A stretch of 22,637 nt of DNA, from positions 1 through 22,637 of the IMG/VR virus record IMGVR_UViG_3300006810_000433; one strand, 5' to 3'. Made by a program: the position numbers and the translations under genes. This DNA comes from a virus. Below the pieces are notes generated by a model that was not told the DNA's origin, searched no databases, and worked only from the letters and a program-made list of their open reading frames with translations. Positions 3,345 to 22,637 of the stretch are shown here, one piece after another; within the stretch, counting starts at the first letter, position 1; each line of letters starts with the position of its first letter.

Positions 3345-3373
3345 ATTATAACACAAAAAAGAGGGGTGATCAA
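3345..3373 (-). promoter_or_regulatory. Host-type promoter overlapping a terminator
   Basis: A -10 box TATAAT (3345-3350) is preceded, at exactly 17 bp, by TTGATC (3368-3373). The -35 lies in the loop of the upstream intrinsic terminator, and the right stem arm plus T-tract form the spacer. Expected start of transcription is near 3338, just ahead of the small acidic gene and the thyX operon. Confidence 0.75.
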
Positions 3374-3381
3374 TCCCCTCT
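3354..3381 (-). terminator. Rho-independent terminator
   Basis: On the minus strand AGAGGGG (3375-3381) pairs with CCCCTCT (3360-3366) around an 8-nt loop, followed by T6 overlapping the stem end (3355-3360). It lies 19 nt after the stop of the 56-aa gene and should end that transcript. Confidence 0.88.
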
Positions 3382-3399: not shown

Positions 3400-3570
3400 C
3401 TAATTTAGAATTTTGCGACAAATACGTTTACATGTTGCCTGATCATCATCGCACTCAATTAGACAGTCAAAATAATCATTAACAAGATCGAGTTCCTCAT
3501 TACATCGGGTTAAGGTACACTCAATATGCATCCACTCTGCTAATTGATTGCGAGAAATGATATTGTGCAT
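3400..3570 (-). CDS. Small Cys-rich protein of unknown function
   Basis: This 56-aa protein starts MHNIISRNQLAEWMHIEC and has five cysteines (IEC, TRC, FDC, IEC, TCKRIC region), with an acidic stretch (ECDDDQ) and a basic end (CKRICRKILN). The cysteines are not in a clear zinc-finger spacing. A near-consensus Shine-Dalgarno GGAGGTGAT directly before the ATG at 3570 fixes the start over the TTG at 3585. It stands alone between two terminators and may be read from the CTAAATA motif at 3654-3660. No family is recognised with confidence. Confidence 0.72.
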   Translation of the reverse strand: MHNIISRNQLAEWMHIECTLTRCNEELDLVNDYFDCLIECDDDQATCKRICRKILN

Positions 3571-3653
3571 ATCACCTCCATGCAATTTTACACATTACAA
3601 AAATGACAAAAGAATTTGATCTCAGGTCATAACTGTACCTCTGAATTCTACCA

Positions 3654-3660: not shown

Positions 3661-3723
3661 AACGATTGTGTGTAAATTAATACAGTCAGGTAATAAAAAT
3701 TTATGCCTACGAGTTTATACTCA

Positions 3724-3754
3724 TAAAAAAAAGAGAGGTTAATTAACCTCTCTT
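3724..3754 (-). terminator. Strong Rho-independent terminator
   Basis: A perfect 10-bp stem, AAGAGAGGTT (3745-3754) with AACCTCTCTT (3731-3740), and an AATT loop are followed by a minus-strand T-tract. The stop codon of the 31-aa microprotein lies inside the stem and loop, so the terminator ends the three-gene cassette directly. Confidence 0.93.
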
Positions 3755-3838
3755 AATTAGTAAGATTTCTCCATATATGATAGTTATAAATGCAATACAA
3801 AATAGAGATAGAATTCCTGCTACTTGTAGTGCTTCCAC
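3743..3838 (-). CDS. 31-aa single-pass membrane microprotein
   Basis: The predicted product starts MEALQVAGILSLFCIAFI and has one strongly hydrophobic span (about residues 5-28) ending in LLIKRG, so it would be an inner-membrane or thylakoid-associated peptide. The start is GTG, with a weak AGAAG upstream, only 4 nt after the DUF4278-like gene's stop. Its TAA lies within the terminator hairpin, so the reading frame uses all the space left in the transcript. Single-span phage microproteins often act on host membranes or as accessory holins, but nothing here shows a function. Confidence 0.6.
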   Translation of the reverse strand: MEALQVAGILSLFCIAFITIIYGEILLIKRG

Positions 3839-3842
3839 AACA

Positions 3843-4007
3843 TCACTTCTGATAAGTATGACCGCGATAGCAAAATGTTCCATGAACTTCATCAACATTT
3901 TGCTTGCACTCAAACTTTACACCACGATATGTGGTCATAGCAATTTGTGCATCGTGCAGTGCTGCTGCTTTTTGAATCTGCTTTTTGATCAGAGAAAGTC
4001 TGTTCAT
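3843..4007 (-). CDS. DUF4278-like small protein
   Basis: This 54-aa protein starts MNRLSLIKKQIQKAAALH and ends with TTYRGVKFECKQ followed by a second YRGHTYQK. The paired YRG motifs resemble DUF4278, a short domain common in cyanobacteria and their phages, with no known function. The N-terminal 24 residues form a probable helix. A good Shine-Dalgarno (AGGAG, 8 nt before ATG) supports the start. It is the middle gene of a promoter-to-terminator cassette, 46 nt after the 53-aa gene and 4 nt before the membrane microprotein. The family link is by motif only. Confidence 0.78.
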   Translation of the reverse strand: MNRLSLIKKQIQKAAALHDAQIAMTTYRGVKFECKQNVDEVHGTFCYRGHTYQK

Positions 4008-4042
4008 TGTAGGTTCTCCTGAAAGAGTAGGGTGAATTTAAT

Positions 4043-4070
4043 CTCCCGTTCCTTCAGTCGTTTGCGTCCC
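4043..4070 (-). repeat. GGGACGCAA-N9-GGAACGGGAG element, copy 2
   Basis: Minus-strand GGGACGCAA, 9 nt, then GGAACGGGAG. It spans the last codons of the 53-aa gene (WDAND and stop) and runs into the following gap. It matches copy 1 at 4226-4252 in both blocks and in spacing. Confidence 0.75.
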
Positions 4071-4215
4071 ATGGACATTCAGGTGTTGCTTCTTGAATTA
4101 CTTCAATAAGCTCAACCTTAACTTGATTATTTAAATTTTCATTAGCATTAATGCGACTAATCATGTCAGCAGCATCAGTACAATGAATACTCGAATAAAA
4201 TAATAAATCAAACAT
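4054..4215 (-). CDS. 53-aa small protein, first gene of early-type cassette
   Basis: The product starts MFDLLFYSSIHCTDAADM and continues with ISRINANENL and VKVELIEVIQEATPE, ending CPWDAND. It is probably helical, with two cysteines. The ATG at 4215 follows GGAACGGAG by 10 nt, a usable Shine-Dalgarno. It is the first gene after the TTGACT-17-TATAAT promoter, with a structured leader of about 55 nt. I associate similar small proteins with cyanophages but know no function. Position behind a host-type promoter suggests early expression. Confidence 0.75.
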   Translation of the reverse strand: MFDLLFYSSIHCTDAADMISRINANENLNNQVKVELIEVIQEATPECPWDAND

Positions 4216-4266
4216 GGGATGAACGCTCCGTTCCGCGACTTACTTGCGTCCCCGAAGGGATGAACG
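4216..4266 (-). promoter_or_regulatory. Structured 5' leader with UUCG hairpin and direct repeats
   Basis: The leader of the cassette has CGTTCATCCC twice (4257-4266 and 4216-4225, 41 bp apart), the second touching the ATG. The first forms UCCC-UUCG-GGGA (4249-4260), a compact tetraloop hairpin. The Shine-Dalgarno GGAACGGAG lies between the copies. Confidence 0.6.
4226..4252 (-). repeat. GGGACGCAA-N9-GGAACGGAG element, copy 1
   Basis: Minus-strand GGGACGCAA, 9 nt, then GGAACGGAG in the leader of the 53-aa gene, where the last block serves as Shine-Dalgarno. The second copy is 182 bp further along the transcript at 4043-4070. Confidence 0.75.
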
Positions 4267-4276
4267 ACCTGTGTAT

Positions 4277-4305
4277 ATTATAACTTATACATTCTATCTA
4301 GTCAA
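4277..4305 (-). promoter_or_regulatory. Strong host-type (sigma-70) promoter
   Basis: TTGACT (4300-4305), a 17-bp spacer and a perfect TATAAT (4277-4282) precede the three-gene cassette. Expected start is near 4270. The same hexamers and spacing occur at 7751-7779. Confidence 0.88.
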
Positions 4306-5442: not shown

Positions 5443-5505
5443 TTTTCTTACCTCGGGAAACTCGTTTCTTCTTTTTTGAATTAAAGGAAAACTCAAAATA
5501 GATGT

Positions 5506-5583
5506 TTACTTCCCGATTGAGAAAGCAAACCATCTTTTCAAAAATGATATGAAATGGTTGTGTCTGCTTTCTCTTACCTCCAT
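5506..5583 (-). CDS. Possible 25-aa microprotein
   Basis: ATG to TAA reads MEVRESRHNHFISFLKRWF and six further residues. It is basic and aromatic with an amphipathic helix pattern. It fills the gap between nrdC and the membrane protein, 40 nt after the late promoter octamer. No Shine-Dalgarno precedes the ATG, so translation is uncertain. Without it 5443-5630 holds only the promoter and hairpin. Confidence 0.42.
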   Translation of the reverse strand: MEVRESRHNHFISFLKRWFAFSIGK

Positions 5584-5592
5584 TAAGTATAA

Positions 5593-5623
5593 AATCAACA
5601 CCACGATTTCTGTGGTTTTGATT
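5593..5623 (-). terminator. Long hairpin after nrdC, possible terminator
   Basis: Twelve-base arms (5612-5623 and 5593-5604) pair with one mismatch around a 7-nt loop. The stem is followed by TTATACTT, a weak T-rich tail. It could end the oxygenase-nrdC transcript while the overlapping late promoter starts a new one. Confidence 0.5.
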
Positions 5624-5630
5624 ATTTATA
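5623..5630 (-). promoter_or_regulatory. T4-type late promoter TATAAATA
   Basis: An exact TATAAATA octamer directly follows the TAA of nrdC and touches the hairpin at 5593-5623. It would drive the 25-aa ORF, the membrane protein, the DUF6433-like gene and the 84-aa gene late in infection. Confidence 0.65.
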
Positions 5631-5873
5631 TTAGGATTTGATAACTTGTCGTTCTCTGAGGAATTTGATTGTGTCAACGCAACCTCCCAATTTTTCATCA
5701 TTACAAATTACCTGAGGAAAAGTAGATTCCTCCCCAAACTTCATATAAAACTCATCTTTAGTAAAATCTTTATCAAGTTTGTAAATAGTAAAATTACTTC
5801 CGGTAAGTTCTAAAACTTGCTTAACCTTATAACAATAAGGACAATCATCTTTCGAATAAACTTTAAAATTCAT
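5631..5873 (-). CDS. nrdC: Glutaredoxin (NrdC-like)
   Basis: This 80-aa protein begins MNFKVYSKDDCPYCYKVKQV. The redox motif CPYC is at 11-14, the cis-proline segment TFPQV is in the middle, and GGC follows near the C-terminus, so this is a complete dithiol glutaredoxin. Such proteins reduce ribonucleotide reductase or protein disulphides with electrons from glutathione. The ATG at 5873 was chosen over a TTG two codons upstream. It follows the first 2OG oxygenase-like gene by 24 nt and is the last gene of the block driven by the promoter at 7751-7779. It could support ribonucleotide reductase encoded elsewhere or the redox state of the oxygenases. Confidence 0.93.
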   Translation of the reverse strand: MNFKVYSKDDCPYCYKVKQVLELTGSNFTIYKLDKDFTKDEFYMKFGEESTFPQVICNDEKLGGCVDTIKFLRERQVIKS

Positions 5874-12614: not shown

Positions 12615-15600
12615 TTATGCGAAGTTTACTACGTTTGCTAATACAGACCAAATTGGCGTTGATGAATATTTAATAATATTATATGTATAAACATCAACGC
12701 CACTAGATCCACCTGTAGATGGTGCAGATCCGCCTAACCATTTTTCAGTAACTGCTGCACCATCAATTGTCAATTGTGCAGAATATCCTGCTGCAGCAGC
12801 GGAAGAAATAAGAACAACTGTAATTGCTTCACCAACATTCATGGAAGAATTAAGTGTCGTTGAAGCATCAACTCTTATATTTGGTGTTGATGTTGTTGAT
12901 TCTACCGTGTCAAAGTAATGAACCATACCATTCGCAAGATCAATATTTGTATTGTCACTCAGTTTTCCAGTTACAATATTTACACCCTCTTTGAGTAATC
13001 CAGCAACATCAAGATTACCTTGGAATGTAGTTGCACCCAGAATTCCTGCAGAGGAATTGAATGTTAGATTACTTCCAGATTTAGGTGGCAAATTTCCAGT
13101 TGCCGCAGTAGCAAATAATGGGAAACAAGTAGTATCTGAAGATTCATCTGCAACTGTTACGTTAGTTGCTGTGGTTGCAGTTCCAGTTACATTACCGGTT
13201 ACATTACCGGTTACATCGCCAACTACGTTTCCAGTTATATTGCCAGTAAAAGATGTTGCAGTGATAATACCAGTAACGTTCATGTTACCAGTACCAGTAA
13301 TATTCTTACTATTAAGATCTAAATTGCCACCAAGTTGTGGTGTTGTGTCACCTACAATGTCAGTTGAAATACCCGTCAGAGAAGTATATGGGTAATTGGT
13401 AGCATCAGAGAGATTAAAAGCAGGTGTTGTGTCAGTACCACCCAAATTAAATGTAACACCACCAACAGAAATAGTAGAATTATCTAATGCACTATTAGGA
13501 ATACCAGTAAGATTAGCACCAGAACCAGAGAATGATGTAGCAGTAGCAATTCCAGTAATATTAATACCACCAGTGCCTTGAATTAATCTACTATTAAGGT
13601 CTAAATTGCCACCAAGTTGTGGAGAAGTATCATCAACAACATCAGATAACCCAACCAGATTTAATTCAACTCCAATTTGAAATCCAACTACTTCAATAAT
13701 ATCACCAACAGATGCTCCCGTAGTAAGAGTAATTGAAGTTCCGTTAGTTGCCGTATATTCTGTAGAGTCTAACTTAGATCCGTTCAGATATACATCACAA
13801 TGCCCAACAGTATATTCTACCGTTCCACTAGCAGGAACGACAGTTTGTCCTTCTGTAGCAACTTCTCTATGTACATTTTTATCACTTGTTGGAATTGTAA
13901 TGTCTGCTTGTCCTCCAGTAATGGAAACAGTTATTCCAGTTCCAACAAAGTTAATTGTCGTAACTCCAGTTCCAACAATTTCTCCATCAGAACTAACTCC
14001 AGTTACAGTTCCCGAACCACCACCACCTCCACCACCTGCTGTTGCGGCAGTTGTAATACCAGTGATTCTACCACTGGAATCTACAGTAATTATAGGTGTT
14101 ACAGTAGAACTACCATAAGTCGCTGCAGAAGCACCAGTGAGTCCGGTTAAACTTGAACCAGAACCAGAGAATGATGTTGCACTTGCGGTTCCGGTTATTG
14201 TAACTCCAGTGGTTACGGTTTTTATCTTTTCAGATCCATAGTAGAAAAGTTTTGCCTCACCAGTGCTACCATCGGCACGGAAATAATCCGTAGTATTACC
14301 AGAACCATCATCAGTCTGAATAATAACATCATTGTCATCATTCAAACTAACAATATAAAGATCACCAACATCAGATTGTTGACTGACATAACTGTCAGAA
14401 CCGTCATGATAAATTTGCAAGTCATTACCTGCACCAAATCTCAGTCTGTCATCAGTAGAACCAGAACTATCACCAAACTGAATTAGGTTTCCATTGGTAT
14501 CTAATGTTCCACCAAGTTGTGGTGTGGTGTCTTCGGAAATACTAGATATTCCACTACCACTACCAGATCCTGCGGTTGCAACTGTAGAAATGCCAGTAAT
14601 TCTTCCATTAGAATCTACAACAATAACAGGTGTTGCGTTAGCAGATCCATAAGTTGCAGCAGAAGCACCAGTAAGATCAGTCAGTGCAGAACCATCAAGT
14701 GCAGGTAATGCACCACTCAATTTAGATGAAGATACTGTAGATAATCTTGCGTCTGCAACTGTTCCTGTTAGTTGCCCAGCAGGTATTGATGTTAATGATG
14801 CGCCAGAACCAGAGAAAGTAGTACCGGTTATAATTCCACTAATATTAATACCACCAGTTCCGTTTATAAGATTAGCATTAAGATCTAAGTCGCCACCTAA
14901 CTGAGGTGTTGTATCACCCACAATATGGGTGACAATTCCTGTTAAAGAAGTGAAAGGATAGTTGGTGGCATCAGTAAGATCAAATGCTGGTGTTGCATCA
15001 GTAGCACCTAATGCAATATTTACGCCACCAAGATAAATGGTAGTGTTAACTAAAGCACTGTTAGGAACAGAAGATTCTGATATTATATTACCGCTAAATG
15101 ATGTTGCAGTGATAATACCAGTAACGTTCATGTTACCAGTACCAGTAATATCATTAGAGTTAAGATCTAAGTCTCCACCAAGTTGTGGAGTTGTATCATC
15201 AGAAACTTGAGCAAGTCCACCACCAGATCCGGCAGTAGTAACAGTTGTAATACCAGTAATTCTACCATTAGCATCAACCGTAATAACGGGTGTCAGTCCA
15301 GTACTTCCATAAGATCCAGCAGAAGCACCAGTCAATCCGGTCATATTTGATGCCGAACCAGAGAATGATGTTGCAGTTATAACACCAGTGATATTAACGT
15401 CACCAGTACCAGTAATATCATTACTATTAAGATCCAAGTTTCCACCAAGTTGCGGAGTTGTATCACCTACAATATGAGTTACAATTCCTGTTAAAGAAGT
15501 AAATGGATAATTAGTAGCATCACTTAAATCAAATGCAGGTGTTGTATCACTTTGTCCCAGTGATAATGTTACACCACCAAAATTAACACTAGAGTTATCT

Positions 15601-18600
15601 AATGCACTGTTAGGAATTGATGTTAATGATGCACCAGAACCAGAGAACGTGGTGGCAGTAGCAATTCCAGTTACATTCAGAGTTCCATCTGGTCTTATAA
15701 CAACACCAGTAGTCGCTGTTCCGACAGTAATGGTTTGAGTCGTAGCAGAACCCAATCCAACTACATCATCCAAAGTTTGAGTTTCAGTATACGAAGTTAA
15801 ATATGACTGAAGGTCACTGATTTGAGATTCAGTGATACTCAGTGCTGCCTGATGCTGTGTTACAGAACTTTCAGTGATGTTAGCATTGGGTACATTTGCC
15901 CAAGTAACAGCAGAACTTAGATCATTAGTTTCGGTAAAACTAGTAAGATAAGTAGAACTATCAACAGAACCATCTGCTTTTAAGAATTGAGATGATGTTC
16001 CGGTAGCAGTTGCAAATCCAGTAGCAGTTGCAACACCAGTGATGTTAATTCCACCAGTTCCATCAATTAGTTTCGAATTAAGATCTAAATTACCACCAAG
16101 TTGTGGTGTAGTATCTTCTACAACATTAGAGATTCCACCAGATCCTGTGGATGTAACTGTAGAAATTGAAGTGATTCTACCATTAGAATCAACAGTAATT
16201 ATAGGTGTTAAACTAGCAGATCCATAAGTTCCTACACCAACACCAGTTAAATTAGTCAGATTTGCTCCACTGACGGCAGGTAATGTTGAAGGAAATCTAT
16301 CATCAGGAACAGTTCCAGAACCTAAATTAGATGCATTTAGTGAAGTCAGATTTGCTCCACTAACAGTAGGTAATGTTGAAGGGAATCTAGCATCAGGAAC
16401 TGTTCCAGAACCTAAATTAGATGCATTTAGTGAAGTCAGATTTGCTCCGCTACCATTAGTAAGAAGAAGTGTTCCACTTGATGATGGTAATGTTACTGTA
16501 GCATTACCAGAGTAGTCTGCATGTGCTGCTGCTTGAAGTCTTGTGTAATGAGCATTACTAACTTCACAATAGAAGTCAATTCTACCTTGAGAACCATCAT
16601 CACTACGAACTTCTGCTTGATTAGTGAGTGTACTAATACCAGATACATTTAATTCAGTTAAAGTACCAACACTTGTCAATGAAGAATTAACAACATTAGA
16701 TCCAAGTGTTGTTGCAGAAAGAACATCAGTTCCATTAATTTTATAAGTTTTGCCAGTTGCTAAATTTAAATTTTCACTAGATTTGAGTGAAGTATTGCTA
16801 TGATCATAAAGTAAAGTATTATCAGGACCAATTGTAATACCAGCACCATCAGCTAAAAGATCACTAGTTGCAGTTGTAGCAATGCCAACTATAAAATCCG
16901 CAAGTTCAATCGTCGTAGAGTTGATCTGAGTCGTCGTACCATCAACATAAAGATCACCCTTAATTCTTACTGCACCAGTATCGTCTCCAACTGCAGCCGG
17001 ATCGATGAATAACTCTGCTGGACCACTAATTGTATTACTAGTAACTCTAATAGCAGAACCTTCTGCTCCAGTATGTAATGCAGTAGCAGTTAAGATTCCA
17101 ACTTGAATGTTATTTGATGTGGTGTTTCCTCTTCCAACTACAGAATCTAATGTATCTGTTTCAGCATAAGAAGTTAAATATGTAGAACTATCAACAGACC
17201 CATCTGCTTTTAAAAACTGAGATGATGTTCCACCAGATTTGACAAAAGATGTAGCAGTTATGATACCAGTAACATTTATGTTACCAGTTCCAGTAATATC
17301 ATTACTATTGAGATCTAAATTACCGCCAAGTTGTGGAGTAGTATCACCTACAATATGAGTTGCAATTCCTGTTAAAGAAGTGTAAGGATAATTAGTAGCA
17401 TCACTTAAGTCAAATGCAGGTGTTGTATCACTTTGTCCCAGTGATAATGTTACACCACCAAAGTTAACACTAGAGTTATCTAATGCACTGTTAGGAATTG
17501 ATGTTAATGAAGCACCAGAACCACTAAATGTAGTGGCAGTTATGATACCAGTGATATTAACGTTACCAGTTCCAGTAATATCATTACTATTGAGATCTAA
17601 ATTACCGCCAAGTTGAGGTGTAGTATCTTCCACAATAGATGCAATTGCTCCAGATCCACTAATAGGAGCAGTCGTAATACCAGTGATTCTACCATTAGCA
17701 TCAACCGTAATAACTGGTGCTATGTCAGAACTACCATAAGTTGCTGCAGAAGCACCGGTTAATCCAGTCAAAGAAGATCCAGAACCAGAGAAAGTACCAG
17801 CAGTTAATGTATTAGTACTTGGATTATAATTTAATGTATTATCAGTTTCTAAAGTTTGTGATCCACTTTGCCCATCAGCAAAAGTTAGATATACAGTTTC
17901 ATCAGTACTAACGTTAGAAGCAAGACTTATACTAGTTACAGTAGTAGTCAGTAAATTTGCAGAAGGATTATAAGTTAAGTTAGTGTCAGTTTCTAGTCTT
18001 TGTGATCCTGTAGCACCATCAGCAAAAGTTAGATATACAGTTTCATCATTAGTATTATTAGCAAGAAGATTTACATTAGTTGATTCTATTGCATTAGAAA
18101 TAGTACCACTAATGGTATTTGTAGAAGGATTGTAAGTTAATGAACTGTCAGTTTCTAAACGTTGTGATCCATTTTGTCCATCAGCAAAAGTTAGATATAC
18201 AGTTTCATCAGTAATGTTATTGATAGCAAGATTTAAAAAGTCGACAGTAGTATTCAATATGTTCGTAGAAGGATTATAAGTTAATCCAGTGTCAGTTTCT
18301 AAACGTTGTGATCCTGTAGCACCATCAGCAAACGTTAAATATACAGTTTCATTATTAGTATTATTAGCAAGAAGATTTACATTATTAGCGATATCTACAG
18401 TAGTATTAAGTGTATTGGTGCTTGGATTATAAGTTAATCCAGTGTCAGTATAAACATCGGAATTTGTATGATTTGTTCCTGGACTACTAGTAAGACTACT
18501 AAAAGGTATTAGATAATTAGAATTATCTGAGTTTGCTGTTAGTTTTAATCCAAAAGAATGGTTTGAAGTAGTAGCAGCAGCATTAAGTGTATTCGTATAA

Positions 18601-20741
18601 GGATTGTAAGTTAATCCAGTGTCAGTATAAACATCAGAATTTGTATGGGTTGTTCCTGGACTACTAGTAAGACTACTAAAAGGTATTAGATAATTAGAAT
18701 TATCTGAGTTTGCTGTTAGTTTTAATCCAAAAGAATGGTTTGAAGTAGTAGCAGCAGCATTAAGTGTATTGGTGCTTGGATTATAAGTTAATCCAGTGTC
18801 AGTATAAACATCGGAATTTGTATGGGTTGTTCCTGGACTACTAGAAAGACTACTAAAAGGTATTAGATAATTAACATTATCTGAGTTTGCTGTTAGTTTT
18901 AATCCATAAGAATGGTTTGAAGTAGTAGCAGCAGCATTAAGTGTATTGGTACTTGGATTATAACTTAATGCAGTGTCAACATGAATATCAGAATTTGTAT
19001 GGGTTGTTCCTGGACTACTAGTAAGATCACTAAAAGGTATTAGATAATTAGAATTATCCGAGTTTGCTGTTAGTTTTAATCCATAAGAATGAGTAGATTC
19101 AGAAGATCTAGCACCAATTACATTCGTAGAAGGATTATAGGTTAATGCAGTATCAGTTTCTAGTGCTTGCGTCCCTGTAGCACCATCAGCAAACGTTAAA
19201 TATACAGTTTCATTATTGCTATTATTTGCATTAAGATTTACATTATATGCTAATGAAGATTCAGAAGATCTAGCACCAATTATATTCGTAGAAGGATTAT
19301 AAGTTAAGTTAGTGTCAGTTTCTAGTCTTTGTGATCCTGTAGCACCATCAGCAAAAGTTAGATATACAGTTTCATCATTAGTATTATTAGCAAGAAGATT
19401 TACATTATTAGCGTTATCTGCAGTAGCACCAATTATATTCGTAGAAGGATTATAAGTTAATGAAATGTCAGTTTCTAGTCTTTGTGATCCACTTTGTCCA
19501 TCGGCAAAAGTTAGATATACAGTTTCATTAGTACTGTCATTAGTAAGAAGATTTACATTAGTTGCTTCTGTTGCAGTATCTGCATTACCTGTAAGATCAC
19601 CATCAAATGAAGTAGCAGTTACAATACCAGTAACATTTAATTTTACTAAAGTTCCAACACTCGTTAATGAAGAATTGACAACATTAGATTCAAGTGTTGT
19701 CGCAGAAAGAACATCAGTTCCATTAATTTTATAAGTTTTACCGGTTGCTAGATTTAGATTTTCACTAGATTTAAGTGCAGTGTTGGTGTGATCATAAAGT
19801 AAACTGTTATTAGGACCAATCGTAATACCAGCACCATCAGCTAACAAATCAGTAGTTGCAGTTGTAGCGATGCCAACTATAAAATCCGCAAGTTGAATGG
19901 TGGTTGAATTGATTTGTGTTGTAGTTCCATCAACATAAAGATCACCCTTAATTCTTACTGCACCAGTATCGTCTCCAACTGCAGCCGGATCGATGAATAA
20001 CTCTGCTGGACCACTGATAGTATTAGAAGTAATTCTGACAGCAGAACCTTCTGCTCCAGTATGGAATGCTGTTGCTGTAGCAACACCAGTGATATTAATT
20101 CCACCAGTTCCATTAATAAGTTTCGAATTGAGATCTAAATTACCACCAAGTTGTGGGTTAGTATCATAAACTATTTCGGTACTGATACCTGTTAATGATG
20201 TATAAGGATAATTAGTAGCATCACTTAAATCAAATGCAGGTGTTGTATCACTTTGTCCTAGTGATAATGTTACACCACCAAAATTGACACTAGAATTATC
20301 TAATGCACTATTAGGAATTGATGTTAATGATGCACCAGAACCAGAAAAAGTAGTGCCGGTTATAATTCCACTAATATTAATTCCACCAGTTCCATTAATA
20401 AGTTTCGAATTGAGATCTAAATTACCACCAAGTTGTGGGTTAGTATCTTCCGAAACAGATGCAATTGCATCTGTTCCACTAATGGAAGCAGTTGTAATAC
20501 CAGTAATTCTACCATTAGCATCAACCGTAATAATTGGTGCTACGTTATTACTACCGTAAGTTCCTACACTGGCACCAGTCAAATCAGTCAGATTTGATCC
20601 ATCACCAAAGTAAGTAACAACACCACTAACTGATGTTACTATTCCAGAATCTACTTTTACAGAACCTAATGTACTTATTCCAGTGACGCTTAACTGTCTA
20701 CTGTCATCAATGACAGTTGTGCCTTGTACCTTAATTGCCAT
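12615..20741 (-). CDS. Giant modular tail-fibre/structural protein, 2708 aa
   Basis: It starts MAIKVQGTTVIDDSRQLSVT, a start I associate with cyanophage virion proteins. Modules seen: eleven PQLGG-L-D-N units mostly followed by GTG-NITG-ATSFSGSG; seven ETVYLTFADG/YNPSTN knobs (about 395-975); four tandem 59-residue GLKLTANSDN units (about 551-786); a 139-residue block repeated at about 226-364 and 1222-1360; LQIYHDGSDSY (about 2110); an NGSKLDSTEYT domain (about 2310); a VTGNVTG shaft (about 2500); and a C-terminal domain with NGMVHYFDTVEST and VYTYNIIKYS. No enzyme motif or S74 domain is present. Likely a long trimeric fibre whose C-terminus may face the host. GAGGAC before the ATG supports the start. 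Confidence 0.82.
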   Translation of the reverse strand: MAIKVQGTTVIDDSRQLSVTGISTLGSVKVDSGIVTSVSGVVTYFGDGSNLTDLTGASVGTYGSNNVAPIITVDANGRITGITTASISGTDAIASVSEDTNPQLGGNLDLNSKLINGTGGINISGIITGTTFSGSGASLTSIPNSALDNSSVNFGGVTLSLGQSDTTPAFDLSDATNYPYTSLTGISTEIVYDTNPQLGGNLDLNSKLINGTGGINITGVATATAFHTGAEGSAVRITSNTISGPAELFIDPAAVGDDTGAVRIKGDLYVDGTTTQINSTTIQLADFIVGIATTATTDLLADGAGITIGPNNSLLYDHTNTALKSSENLNLATGKTYKINGTDVLSATTLESNVVNSSLTSVGTLVKLNVTGIVTATSFDGDLTGNADTATEATNVNLLTNDSTNETVYLTFADGQSGSQRLETDISLTYNPSTNIIGATADNANNVNLLANNTNDETVYLTFADGATGSQRLETDTNLTYNPSTNIIGARSSESSLAYNVNLNANNSNNETVYLTFADGATGTQALETDTALTYNPSTNVIGARSSESTHSYGLKLTANSDNSNYLIPFSDLTSSPGTTHTNSDIHVDTALSYNPSTNTLNAAATTSNHSYGLKLTANSDNVNYLIPFSSLSSSPGTTHTNSDVYTDTGLTYNPSTNTLNAAATTSNHSFGLKLTANSDNSNYLIPFSSLTSSPGTTHTNSDVYTDTGLTYNPYTNTLNAAATTSNHSFGLKLTANSDNSNYLIPFSSLTSSPGTNHTNSDVYTDTGLTYNPSTNTLNTTVDIANNVNLLANNTNNETVYLTFADGATGSQRLETDTGLTYNPSTNILNTTVDFLNLAINNITDETVYLTFADGQNGSQRLETDSSLTYNPSTNTISGTISNAIESTNVNLLANNTNDETVYLTFADGATGSQRLETDTNLTYNPSANLLTTTVTSISLASNVSTDETVYLTFADGQSGSQTLETDNTLNYNPSTNTLTAGTFSGSGSSLTGLTGASAATYGSSDIAPVITVDANGRITGITTAPISGSGAIASIVEDTTPQLGGNLDLNSNDITGTGNVNITGIITATTFSGSGASLTSIPNSALDNSSVNFGGVTLSLGQSDTTPAFDLSDATNYPYTSLTGIATHIVGDTTPQLGGNLDLNSNDITGTGNINVTGIITATSFVKSGGTSSQFLKADGSVDSSTYLTSYAETDTLDSVVGRGNTTSNNIQVGILTATALHTGAEGSAIRVTSNTISGPAELFIDPAAVGDDTGAVRIKGDLYVDGTTTQINSTTIELADFIVGIATTATSDLLADGAGITIGPDNTLLYDHSNTSLKSSENLNLATGKTYKINGTDVLSATTLGSNVVNSSLTSVGTLTELNVSGISTLTNQAEVRSDDGSQGRIDFYCEVSNAHYTRLQAAAHADYSGNATVTLPSSSGTLLLTNGSGANLTSLNASNLGSGTVPDARFPSTLPTVSGANLTSLNASNLGSGTVPDDRFPSTLPAVSGANLTNLTGVGVGTYGSASLTPIITVDSNGRITSISTVTSTGSGGISNVVEDTTPQLGGNLDLNSKLIDGTGGINITGVATATGFATATGTSSQFLKADGSVDSSTYLTSFTETNDLSSAVTWANVPNANITESSVTQHQAALSITESQISDLQSYLTSYTETQTLDDVVGLGSATTQTITVGTATTGVVIRPDGTLNVTGIATATTFSGSGASLTSIPNSALDNSSVNFGGVTLSLGQSDTTPAFDLSDATNYPFTSLTGIVTHIVGDTTPQLGGNLDLNSNDITGTGDVNITGVITATSFSGSASNMTGLTGASAGSYGSTGLTPVITVDANGRITGITTVTTAGSGGGLAQVSDDTTPQLGGDLDLNSNDITGTGNMNVTGIITATSFSGNIISESSVPNSALVNTTIYLGGVNIALGATDATPAFDLTDATNYPFTSLTGIVTHIVGDTTPQLGGDLDLNANLINGTGGINISGIITGTTFSGSGASLTSIPAGQLTGTVADARLSTVSSSKLSGALPALDGSALTDLTGASAATYGSANATPVIVVDSNGRITGISTVATAGSGSGSGISSISEDTTPQLGGTLDTNGNLIQFGDSSGSTDDRLRFGAGNDLQIYHDGSDSYVSQQSDVGDLYIVSLNDDNDVIIQTDDGSGNTTDYFRADGSTGEAKLFYYGSEKIKTVTTGVTITGTASATSFSGSGSSLTGLTGASAATYGSSTVTPIITVDSSGRITGITTAATAGGGGGGGSGTVTGVSSDGEIVGTGVTTINFVGTGITVSITGGQADITIPTSDKNVHREVATEGQTVVPASGTVEYTVGHCDVYLNGSKLDSTEYTATNGTSITLTTGASVGDIIEVVGFQIGVELNLVGLSDVVDDTSPQLGGNLDLNSRLIQGTGGINITGIATATSFSGSGANLTGIPNSALDNSTISVGGVTFNLGGTDTTPAFNLSDATNYPYTSLTGISTDIVGDTTPQLGGNLDLNSKNITGTGNMNVTGIITATSFTGNITGNVVGDVTGNVTGNVTGTATTATNVTVADESSDTTCFPLFATAATGNLPPKSGSNLTFNSSAGILGATTFQGNLDVAGLLKEGVNIVTGKLSDNTNIDLANGMVHYFDTVESTTSTPNIRVDASTTLNSSMNVGEAITVVLISSAAAAGYSAQLTIDGAAVTEKWLGGSAPSTGGSSGVDVYTYNIIKYSSTPIWSVLANVVNFA
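16662..17078. repeat. 417-bp direct repeat, copy A
   Basis: This stretch encodes the block GPAELFIDPAAVGDDTG to NGTDVLSATTLGSNVV. A near-identical copy lies exactly 2988 bp away at 19650-20066, a whole number of codons (996), so the frame is kept. Confidence 0.85.
18384..19091. repeat. Four tandem 177-bp repeats
   Basis: Four units of exactly 177 bp (59 codons) with boundaries at 19091, 18914, 18737 and 18560. Each encodes HS(Y/F)GLKLTANSDN ... YLIPFSSL ... HTNSD ... YNPSTNTLN. Units 2-4 differ by few bases, pointing to recent expansion. Confidence 0.92.
19650..20066. repeat. 417-bp direct repeat, copy B
   Basis: Second copy of the block at 16662-17078, with scattered, mostly silent or conservative differences (for example QLADF for ELADF, LESNVV for LGSNVV). 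Confidence 0.85.
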
Positions 20742-20791: not shown

Positions 20792-22637
20792 TCACTCAAG
20801 TTTAGAAAGTCTAGTATTTAAATTATCAATTTGTTTTTGCTGTTCCTTAACTGTCTCAATTAATAGACCGATTAAACCATTGTAATTAACTGTTTTAGTG
20901 TCATTTCCATTAACAAGTTGAGGAAGAACTTTTTCAACCTCTTGAGCAATGACACCTGCGGACGGTTTATTATTCTCCTTCCATTCAAAGTTAACACCAC
21001 GAATCTGAACAATCTTTTCAAGTGGATCTTCAATAGTCCGAATATTAGTCTTAAGATTTTGATCAGAAGTTGTGTTGAAATCAGTTGAAGTAGTAACACC
21101 AGTGATAGTAATACCACCTGTACCATTAATAAGTTTAGAATTAAGGTCTAAATTCCCACCAAGTTGTGGTGTAGTATCAGTTGAAACTTCTACTATACCA
21201 TCAAATGAAGTAGCAGTTACAACACCAGTGATATTAATTCCACCAGTTCCATTAATAAGTTTAGAATTAAGGTATAAATTACCGCCAAGTTGAGGTGTAG
21301 TATCATAAAGTATTTCTGTCGAAATACCCGTCAGAGAAGTATAAGGATAATTAGTAGCATCACTTAAGTCAAATGCAGGTGTTGCATCAGTGTCACCTAA
21401 GTTAAATGTAACTCCACCAATAGCAATACTAGAATTATCTAATGCATTGTTAGGAATACTAGTAAGAGAAGCACCAGAACCAGAGAATGTCGTAGCAGTG
21501 ATAACACCAGTGATATTAATTCCACCAGTTCCATTAATAAGTTTCGAATTGAGATCTAAGTTTCCACCAAGTTGTGGAGTTGTATCATAAAGTATTTCTG
21601 TCGAAATACCTGTTAACGATGTATAAGGATAATTAGTTGCATCACTTAAATCAAATGCTGGTGTTGCATCAGTGTCACCTAAGTTAAATGTAACTCCACC
21701 AATAGCAATACTAGAATTATCTAATGCACTATTAGGAATATTAGTAAGAGAAGCACCTGATCCAGAGAATGTAGTAGCAGTTGCAATACCAGTTATTGTG
21801 ACACCAGCATTCGTAGTCTCAAGTTTCTTGGAGTTATCATAGTAAAGTTCAACAGCACCATCATCATGAATAATAATTCCCTCTTCAGCATTACGAGGTC
21901 TAAGGTAAATGTTACCTCCCACATCAGTGGAAGCATTGGTACGAATATAAAGATGTCCAGTCTTATTGTCTAAGTAGGTATTAGATCCAGTATGGTAAAT
22001 ATCAAAATCTTTATCGGCACCACATGTAAACTTACCATTAACAGGACCAGACTGGTCACCTACACTAAATGTAGTAGCAGTTACAAAACCAGTAATATTA
22101 ATTCCACCAGTCCCATTAATAAGTTTCGAATTGAGATCTAAATTACCACCAAGTTGTGGTGTAGTGTCGCCTAAAATGTTAGTTGAAATACCTGTCAAAG
22201 AAGTATAAGGATAATTAGTAGCATCCTGAAGATCAAATGCAGGTGTTGTATCACTTTGTCCCAGTGATAATGTTACACCACCAAAGTTAACACTAGAGTT
22301 ATCTAATGCACTATTAGGAATACTAGTAAGAGAAGCACCAGAACCAGAAAAAGTAGTGCCGGTTATAATTCCACTAATATTAATTCCACCAGTTCCATTA
22401 ATAAGTTTAGAATTAAGGTCTAAATTCCCGCCAAGTTGAGGTGTAGTATCATAAAGTATTTCTGTCGAAATACCTGTCAAAGAAGTATAAGGATAATTAG
22501 TAGCATCACTTAAGTCAAATGCAGGTGTTGTATCACTTTGTCCTAGTGATAATGTTACACCACCAAAATTGACACTAGAATTATCTAATGCACTATTAGG
22601 AATTGATGTTAATGAAGCACCAGAACCACTAAATGTA
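20792..22637 (-). CDS. Repetitive fibre protein with C-terminal Peptidase_S74 autochaperone (5' end outside window)
   Basis: 614 codons are visible and the frame is open to the window edge; the ATG at 22480 is internal because the same repeat continues above it. Five PQLGGNL-LNSKLINGTGG units alternate with SFSGSGASLT and FNLGDTDATPAFDL modules, plus an insert with FDIYHTGSNTYLDN and AVELYYDNSKKLE. The last 91 residues are a Peptidase_S74 intramolecular chaperone: SDQNLKTNI (Ser codon 21065-21067, Lys three residues later), GVNFEWKENN, AGVIAQEVEKVLPQLV, then a C-terminal coiled coil. In this family the Ser-Lys dyad cleaves the chaperone off after it trimerises the fibre. Cleavage is expected just before that Ser. 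Confidence 0.88.
   Translation of the reverse strand, partial: TFSGSGASLTSIPNSALDNSSVNFGGVTLSLGQSDTTPAFDLSDATNYPYTSLTGISTEILYDTTPQLGGNLDLNSKLINGTGGINISGIITGTTFSGSGASLTSIPNSALDNSSVNFGGVTLSLGQSDTTPAFDLQDATNYPYTSLTGISTNILGDTTPQLGGNLDLNSKLINGTGGINITGFVTATTFSVGDQSGPVNGKFTCGADKDFDIYHTGSNTYLDNKTGHLYIRTNASTDVGGNIYLRPRNAEEGIIIHDDGAVELYYDNSKKLETTNAGVTITGIATATTFSGSGASLTNIPNSALDNSSIAIGGVTFNLGDTDATPAFDLSDATNYPYTSLTGISTEILYDTTPQLGGNLDLNSKLINGTGGINITGVITATTFSGSGASLTSIPNNALDNSSIAIGGVTFNLGDTDATPAFDLSDATNYPYTSLTGISTEILYDTTPQLGGNLYLNSKLINGTGGINITGVVTATSFDGIVEVSTDTTPQLGGNLDLNSKLINGTGGITITGVTTSTDFNTTSDQNLKTNIRTIEDPLEKIVQIRGVNFEWKENNKPSAGVIAQEVEKVLPQLVNGNDTKTVNYNGLIGLLIETVKEQQKQIDNLNTRLSKLE

Follow-up and report, generated by a model that had tools for sequence, protein, structure and literature searches.

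A glutamine-riboswitch-type RNA in cyanophages with a small gene in a predicted aptamer hairpin loop

In the virus record analyzed here, three very small genes lie between a promoter and a terminator. The window, by which we mean the whole stretch of DNA analyzed (22,637 nucleotides), is a 22.6-kb virus record whose matches are cyanophages. A sequence-only reading had described a self-contained cassette in which a host-type promoter and a terminator enclose ORFs of 53, 54, and 31 aa, and this layout was recovered in full, with all of the following features on the minus strand.

4277–4305, minus strand: sigma70-type promoter, TTGACT-17-TATAAT (11/12 match), with the -10 element at 4277–4282
4054–4215, minus strand: ORF1, 53 aa, phrog_504, T4-GC_430, lying within the P2′ loop described below
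3843–4007, minus strand: ORF2, 54 aa, DUF4278-like YRG protein, phrog_545, T4-GC_937
3743–3838, minus strand: ORF3, 31-aa hydrophobic peptide with a GTG start, conserved and usually unannotated
3723–3754, minus strand: intrinsic terminator, a 10-bp stem (3754–3731) followed by a T run

As had been claimed, the last stop codon (3743–3745, that of ORF3) falls inside the terminator stem. The cassette matched 422 records in the phage collection, nearly all of them Synechococcus phages, and the gene order p53-p54-p31, which had been proposed as something to look for in relatives, was seen again in many loci. Further, the pN/pS ratios of the 53-, 54-, and 31-aa ORFs (0.32, 0.19, and 0.35, respectively) reveal purifying selection, and thus all three ORFs behave as coding genes, which answers the refuting condition set out with the sequence-only reading, namely that changes in relatives would reveal the ORFs to be unconserved. 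The 31-aa peptide recurs at the same place in relatives and is without annotation in the phages examined. The promoter is also present in relatives, 7–9 nt upstream of the aptamer, and a promoter matching at least 10 of 12 positions was found in 140 of 182 short-loop loci compared with 4 in shuffled sequence; it is compatible with early expression. Elsewhere in the window, a terminator-like 7-bp hairpin that fits both strands lies at 3360–3381, just downstream of a small ORF (phrog_665) at 3400–3585, and a repetitive and very long ORF (2708 aa) that by eye resembles a tail fibre occupies 12615–20741 on the minus strand, adjoined by a 562-aa ORF (20792–22480) with similar repeats.

The sequence-only reading was right that the ORFs are real, but it overlooked a structured leader that continues across ORF1. 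The ∼35 nt right before the 53-aa ORF, GACGCAAGTAAGTCGCGGAACGGAGCGTTCATCCC, are near-invariant even where the protein is only 40–60% identical. This leader was considered as a repeat standing before many genes and rejected, as it occurs once per genome in five carriers and is absent from S-SRM01. Nearly all first ORFs, even unrelated-looking ones, end in DAND, encoded as GACGCAAACGAC, followed by the stop codon and AGGAACGG. Together these constitute the 3′ half of a motif in its second copy, and the corresponding 5′ half, CGTTCATCCC, runs up to the ATG; because the 5′ half stops at the start codon and the 3′ half lies at the end of the ORF, the whole of ORF1 stands between two hairpin arms. 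The element is thus built from two half-repeats, each of the form CGUUCAUCC-loop-GGACGCAA...GGAACGG, and its predicted parts in the window are as follows.

4262–4266, minus strand: P1 5′ strand CGUUC of unit 1
4249–4260, minus strand: P2 hairpin of unit 1, UCCC-UUCG-GGGA, the loop of which holds a further gene, ORF0, in 89 relatives
4236–4248, minus strand: J2/3, CGCAAGUA, and the proposed P3 5′ strand AGUCG
4226–4233, minus strand: GAACG strand of unit 1 together with the ORF1 Shine-Dalgarno sequence GGAG (4226–4229)
4221–4225, minus strand: CGUUC strand of unit 2, which may pair elsewhere or with the unit 1 GAACG, in the latter case concealing the Shine-Dalgarno sequence
4213–4219, minus strand: P2′ 5′ strand UCCC, here extended to UCCCAUG
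4044–4073, minus strand: 3′ half of the element, with the P2′ 3′ strand (CAU)GGGA and then CGCAAA, encoding WDAND-stop
Within this half, minus strand: P3 3′ strand CGACU (4056–4060), GAAG (4052–4055), and P1 3′ strand GAACG (4047–4051)
4052–4057, minus strand: anti-Shine-Dalgarno strand CUGAAG, which includes the ORF1 stop codon UGA (4054–4056)
4016–4024, minus strand: Shine-Dalgarno arm UUUCAGGAG of the 54-aa gene, in which UUCAG (4019–4023) may pair with 4053–4057

The 5′ arm of P2′ (CGUUCAUCCC) runs as far as the ORF1 start codon, and in the window the helix reads UCCCAUG/CAUGGGA, start codon included, whereas the 3′ arm codes for the final ORF1 residues WDAND and carries the stop codon. 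Among 280 distinct cassettes, 119 contain ORF1 only, 74 contain ORF0 and ORF1, 15 contain ORF0 only, and 68 contain neither; the remaining 4 contain ORF1, with the first loop unassigned. Hence ORF1 is present in 197 copies and ORF0 in 89, and the ORF1 loop is a short hairpin in 83. The UGA or UAA triplet that is the stop codon of ORF1 is retained in copies without ORF1.

Pairing across the nested genes was then assessed by covariation. In the 197 copies with ORF1, the first four pairs closing P2′ are formed in 99.7% of cells; when one partner was slid by 1–3 bases, only 29–72% were paired, and the number of double-changed cells fell to 0–8 compared with 45 unslid. Similarly, in the 89 copies with ORF0, four P2 pairs are formed in 90.2% of cells (32–59% when slid by 1–3 bases), with 67 double-changed cells compared with 0–18 when slid. 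The closing pairs across ORF1 take the forms UCCC/GGGA, UCCU/AGGA, CCCC/GGGG, and UCUA/UAGA. For the varying pairs over both ORFs, pairing exceeded that in all shuffles: pair 4 of P2′ over ORF1 is formed in 99.5% of copies compared with 84% (maximum 88%) after shuffling, and pair 3 of P2 over ORF0 in 100% compared with 76%. Copies without ORFs behave in the same way in the closed fold (99.9% paired, 73 double-changed cells compared with 16.7 after shuffling), and in these the first P2 pair of unit 1 is UA, AU, GC, or CG. On the p54 tree, independent pairs have the loop arms changing together by 4:0, 3:0, 5:0, and 5:0, a tree on which branches are short and each test has 3–5 informative pairs, none reaching 0.05 alone. 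The constraint extends to the protein: the ORF1 C terminus uses the codons GACGCAAACGAC in 160 of 170 cases, where codon usage elsewhere in the ORF would predict 0.5%, and the CCCC/GGGG form turns DAND into GAND, so that RNA pairing alters the protein.

The covariation across ORF1 rules out a simple conserved leader or Shine-Dalgarno sequence. It also bears on the sequence-only reading of the locus as a plain early host-takeover cassette, that is, three microproteins behind a conserved leader without any sensing RNA. The host-type promoter, small genes, and terminator fit that account, as do the two protein families without assigned function; however, covariation across both ORF1 and ORF0, the codon constraint at the C terminus, and matches to Rfam in homologues lacking ORFs all speak against it, and we consider it very improbable.

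Those matches suggest that the element is of the glutamine-riboswitch type, with ORF-less homologues qualifying as members by Rfam score and the window copy scoring below it. The gathering score of RF01739 (35 bits) was reached by 13 of 20 ORF-less loci (35.6–45.9 bits), and that of RF01704 (Glutamine-II, 33 bits) was also passed by two of these 13, L292 and L276, with unit 2 alone. Conversely, none of 20 gene-loaded loci reached the Rfam glutamine-riboswitch cut-off. The window copy gave 25.7 bits against RF01739 and 23.2 bits against RF01704, below both cut-offs, as expected when a loop carries ∼160 nt. This copy (L144) scored 95 bits against a profile built from ORF-less copies once UUCG, an artificial addition, had been substituted in silico for its ORF1 loop; the ORF-less copies themselves range from 84 to 117 bits, and shuffled sequences reach at most 1.1. 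The sequence CGCAAGTAAGTCGCGGAACGG of the J2/3-P3 region is unchanged in 270 of the 280 copies. A search of the contigs of ∼85,000 genomes for the exact core pattern returned three matches, none of them cyanobacterial. As the exact core is in no cyanobacterial genome searched, this form of the element looks phage-specific. A host origin was considered and set aside: one of the three matches may be due to chance, and two are in a marine MAG. The exact 21-nt core occurs in Nonlabens xiamenensis (L389, 7820–7840), where we estimate that about half a match would be expected by chance in so large a collection.

Other structured RNAs were seen in the course of these searches. Locus L284 carries a manA RNA (RF01745, 173 bits; 1351–1540) and, ∼84 nt downstream of it, an ORF-less glutamine element (1624–1732), making two different structured RNAs in a row, and a contig bearing a gene-loaded element (L159) has a PhotoRC-II RNA at 164–265 on the minus strand (61.9 bits). 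A match to the SurA sRNA at 5498–5706 of the window (minus strand; 24.9 bits against an Rfam cut-off of 100, E 0.004) is probably due to chance.

How the two units combine is indicated by locus L248, in which the best Rfam alignment (46.4 bits) spans both, taking the P1 5′ strand, P2, and AAGUA from unit 1, P3 from between the units, and GAAG and GAACG from unit 2. The ligand-bound form would most likely be one glnA-type aptamer made from both half-repeats, in which P1 consists of the unit 1 CGUUC and the unit 2 GAACG, unit 1 supplies P2, AGUCG and CGACU form P3, and GAAG bridges P3 to P1, serving in the junction. The P2′ hairpin of unit 2 would then sit inside P3, with an entire gene, the 53-aa ORF1, in place of its loop, and in related phages a second gene, ORF0, would occupy the P2 loop of unit 1. 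Alternatively, each unit could pair its own CGUUC and GAACG to give two separate tandem aptamers that sense glutamine cooperatively, with ORF1 (or ORF0) housed by the P2 loop of one of them. The same order of motifs in each unit, the reported occurrence of tandem glnA RNAs (PMC2864571), and the passing of the Glutamine-II cut-off by unit 2 alone in L292 and L276 would all agree with such an arrangement, and the P1 strands CGUUC/GAACG and the P3 strands, although complementary, are near-invariant and give no covariation by which to choose. Yet GAAG is missing before GGAACG in unit 1, and AAGUA is missing from unit 2, so that every part of the consensus is found only in the composite; the L248 alignment covers both units, and AGUCG/CGACU connects them. 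We therefore regard two tandem aptamers as unlikely and favor the single composite aptamer.

A putative expression platform lies between the element and the 54-aa gene. There, a strand reading CUGAAG or CUAAAG is able to pair with one reading CUUCAG or CUUUAG, which directly precedes GGAG, and the two strands covary: copies with UAA all have CUUUAG (87/87), whereas copies with UGA have CUUCAG (118) or a G-U form (52). Independent pairs on the p54 tree agree (7:0, p 0.016), and RNAalifold predicts the helix closing the Shine-Dalgarno sequence unprompted in ORF-less copies. This helix overlaps the ORF1 stop codon and adjoins the Shine-Dalgarno sequence of the 54-aa gene. Covariation and conservation together show the pairing of P2, of P2′, and of the anti-Shine-Dalgarno helix.

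A Shine-Dalgarno sequence also accompanies ORF1. The spacer between GAACG and CGUUC is GAG in 193 and GAGC in 4 of the 197 ORF1-bearing copies and is GAG in 3 of the 83 short-loop copies; GAG was part of the pattern in one collection scan, and in loci from the protein or similarity search the counts are 79 GAG and 4 GAGC of 83. The spacer makes GGAG, a Shine-Dalgarno sequence 10 nt from the ORF1 ATG, which goes with ORF1 in 8–9:0 independent pairs (p 0.008). The flanking GAACG and CGUUC can form a hairpin with this sequence in the loop, in competition with their other pairings.

We propose, as the probable explanation, that the element is a glutamine ON switch for the DUF4278-like protein to which the nested microprotein genes are coupled. 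The host-type promoter would start the transcript at, or a few bases before, the RNA element. In the absence of glutamine, CUGAAG at the ORF1 terminus would pair with UUCAG by the Shine-Dalgarno sequence and keep the 54-aa gene closed; with glutamine bound, the strand would be occupied, leaving the site free for translation of the 54- and 31-aa proteins. In addition, a ribosome terminating ORF1 at the UGA within the anti-Shine-Dalgarno strand would displace CUGAAG and open the same site, coupling the genes. Folding with ViennaRNA gave -73.3 kcal/mol for the closed fold compared with -65.8 kcal/mol for the bound fold without ligand, and this gap of 7.5 kcal/mol is large for one ligand and counts against our explanation.

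A rival account, itself improbable, is that the gene-loaded leader is structured but no longer binds glutamine, its pairs serving only to couple translation of ORF1 to that of the 54-aa gene through the anti-Shine-Dalgarno helix. Such a leader would account for the covariation of a helix containing the stop codon and for the scores of gene-loaded copies under the Rfam cut-offs. The core letters, however, are equal in loaded and empty copies, as the conservation of CGCAAGTAAGTCGCGGAACGG attests, and the 5′ half, P2, and CGCAAGUA would be needless for coupling alone; we give this account slightly less credence than tandem aptamers. A glutamine switch coupled to the nested genes is thus retained as the preferred explanation.

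What the switch would control is a YRG-type ORF, found downstream of the element in 270 of 280 cassettes, gene-loaded or not. The sequence-only reading had assigned unknown functions to at least two of the products. This stands insofar as neither phrog_504 nor phrog_545, the PHROG matches of the 53- and 54-aa proteins, has an assigned function, but it needs amending for the 54-aa protein, which is DUF4278-like, and the glutamine-riboswitch-type RNA in the unit points to nitrogen metabolism. The window protein scored 20.5 bits against DUF4278 (PF14105), below the Pfam gathering score of 25.3, and 48 of 51 aligned phage relatives matched the family at E ≤0.01 (best E 1.7e-7). Its likeliest role, which we hold as possible though doubtful, would be to act on host nitrogen assimilation, as cyanobacterial DUF4278 proteins are thought to do. 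The model of this protein has a helix and two beta hairpins (pTM 0.33, too weak for a structure search). In L248, L149, L193, and L206, the 31-aa peptide is followed or replaced by another YRG-type ORF (...FLTYRGVHYAKW... or similar).

The 53-aa protein is predicted to form three helices (AlphaFold2, pLDDT 86), and the model had no match in the PDB (best E 3.1). ORF0 corresponds to phrog_6471. The proteins of ORF0 and ORF1 have a Cys-helix-helix-Cys pattern in common, and a profile comparison of the two (92% probability over 38 columns) suggests a distant common origin.

A wider proposal, to which we lend somewhat less than even credence, is that marine T4-like cyanophages widely house one or two microprotein genes in glutamine aptamer hairpin loops and that translation of the nested genes and glutamine binding compete for the RNA, so that the phage would sense the supply of ribosomes as well as the nitrogen state ahead of producing a DUF4278-like regulator of nitrogen assimilation in its host. 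Glutamine riboswitches in cyanophages have already been mentioned (PMC9964418, PMC9602691), and a case of a riboswitch and tmRNA is on record in a methylophage (PMC9004378). In a literature search of incomplete coverage, we found no earlier description of ORFs inside riboswitch aptamer loops, nor of a complete small gene in an aptamer hairpin loop ahead of a DUF4278-like gene. Aptamer loops are usually seen as passive spacers; those described here contain protein-coding genes, and the pairs closing the loop covary across an entire ORF. A gene and a sensor controlling its neighbor would share one RNA, giving a concrete, testable connection between phage infection and host glutamine sensing. Rfam at its cut-off detected none of the 20 loaded loci, so that current counts of phage riboswitches are probably too low.

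Group I introns carry ORFs in their peripheral loops. The phage element resembles them in having a gene in a loop of a structured RNA with the core undisturbed but differs in that no splicing core was seen in it, and the nested proteins matched no endonuclease family in the libraries searched. PirA (Ssr0692), like the 54-aa protein as we picture it, is a small cyanobacterial nitrogen-control protein, one that interacts with PII (PMC8092223); it was rejected as a relative, being reported absent from marine picocyanobacteria and having no DUF4278 link in the papers examined. Closer at hand are the cyanobacterial glutamine riboswitches, which are found mainly with DUF4278 genes (gifB, for IF17, and Prochlorococcus PMM1846 among them) and of which both types switch expression on with glutamine (PMC6316151). 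The IF17/GifB N terminus and PMM1846 share with the phage locus a small YRG-motif protein behind a glutamine-riboswitch-type RNA. The window protein falls below the Pfam cut-off and, at only 54 aa, is without the remainder of IF17, a glutamine synthetase inactivating factor. With type 1 (glnA RNA, RF01739), the phage element has in common a predicted P1 (CGUUC/GAACG), P2, a J2/3 with AAGUA, a predicted P3, the GAAG junction, and a DUF4278-type gene downstream, as in cyanobacteria (PMC6316151). It differs from type 1 in being phage-borne, split into two half-repeats, and missed by Rfam when loaded, in holding a whole ORF in an inner loop and often another in P2, and in its J2/3, which is CGCAAGUA rather than CGGAAGUA. 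Unit 2 resembles type 2 (Downstream-peptide, RF01704; CGCA.., GGAACGGG), which is likewise associated with small ORFs in marine picocyanobacteria; in type 2, however, the peptide gene lies downstream of the aptamer, whereas in the phage element it lies inside.
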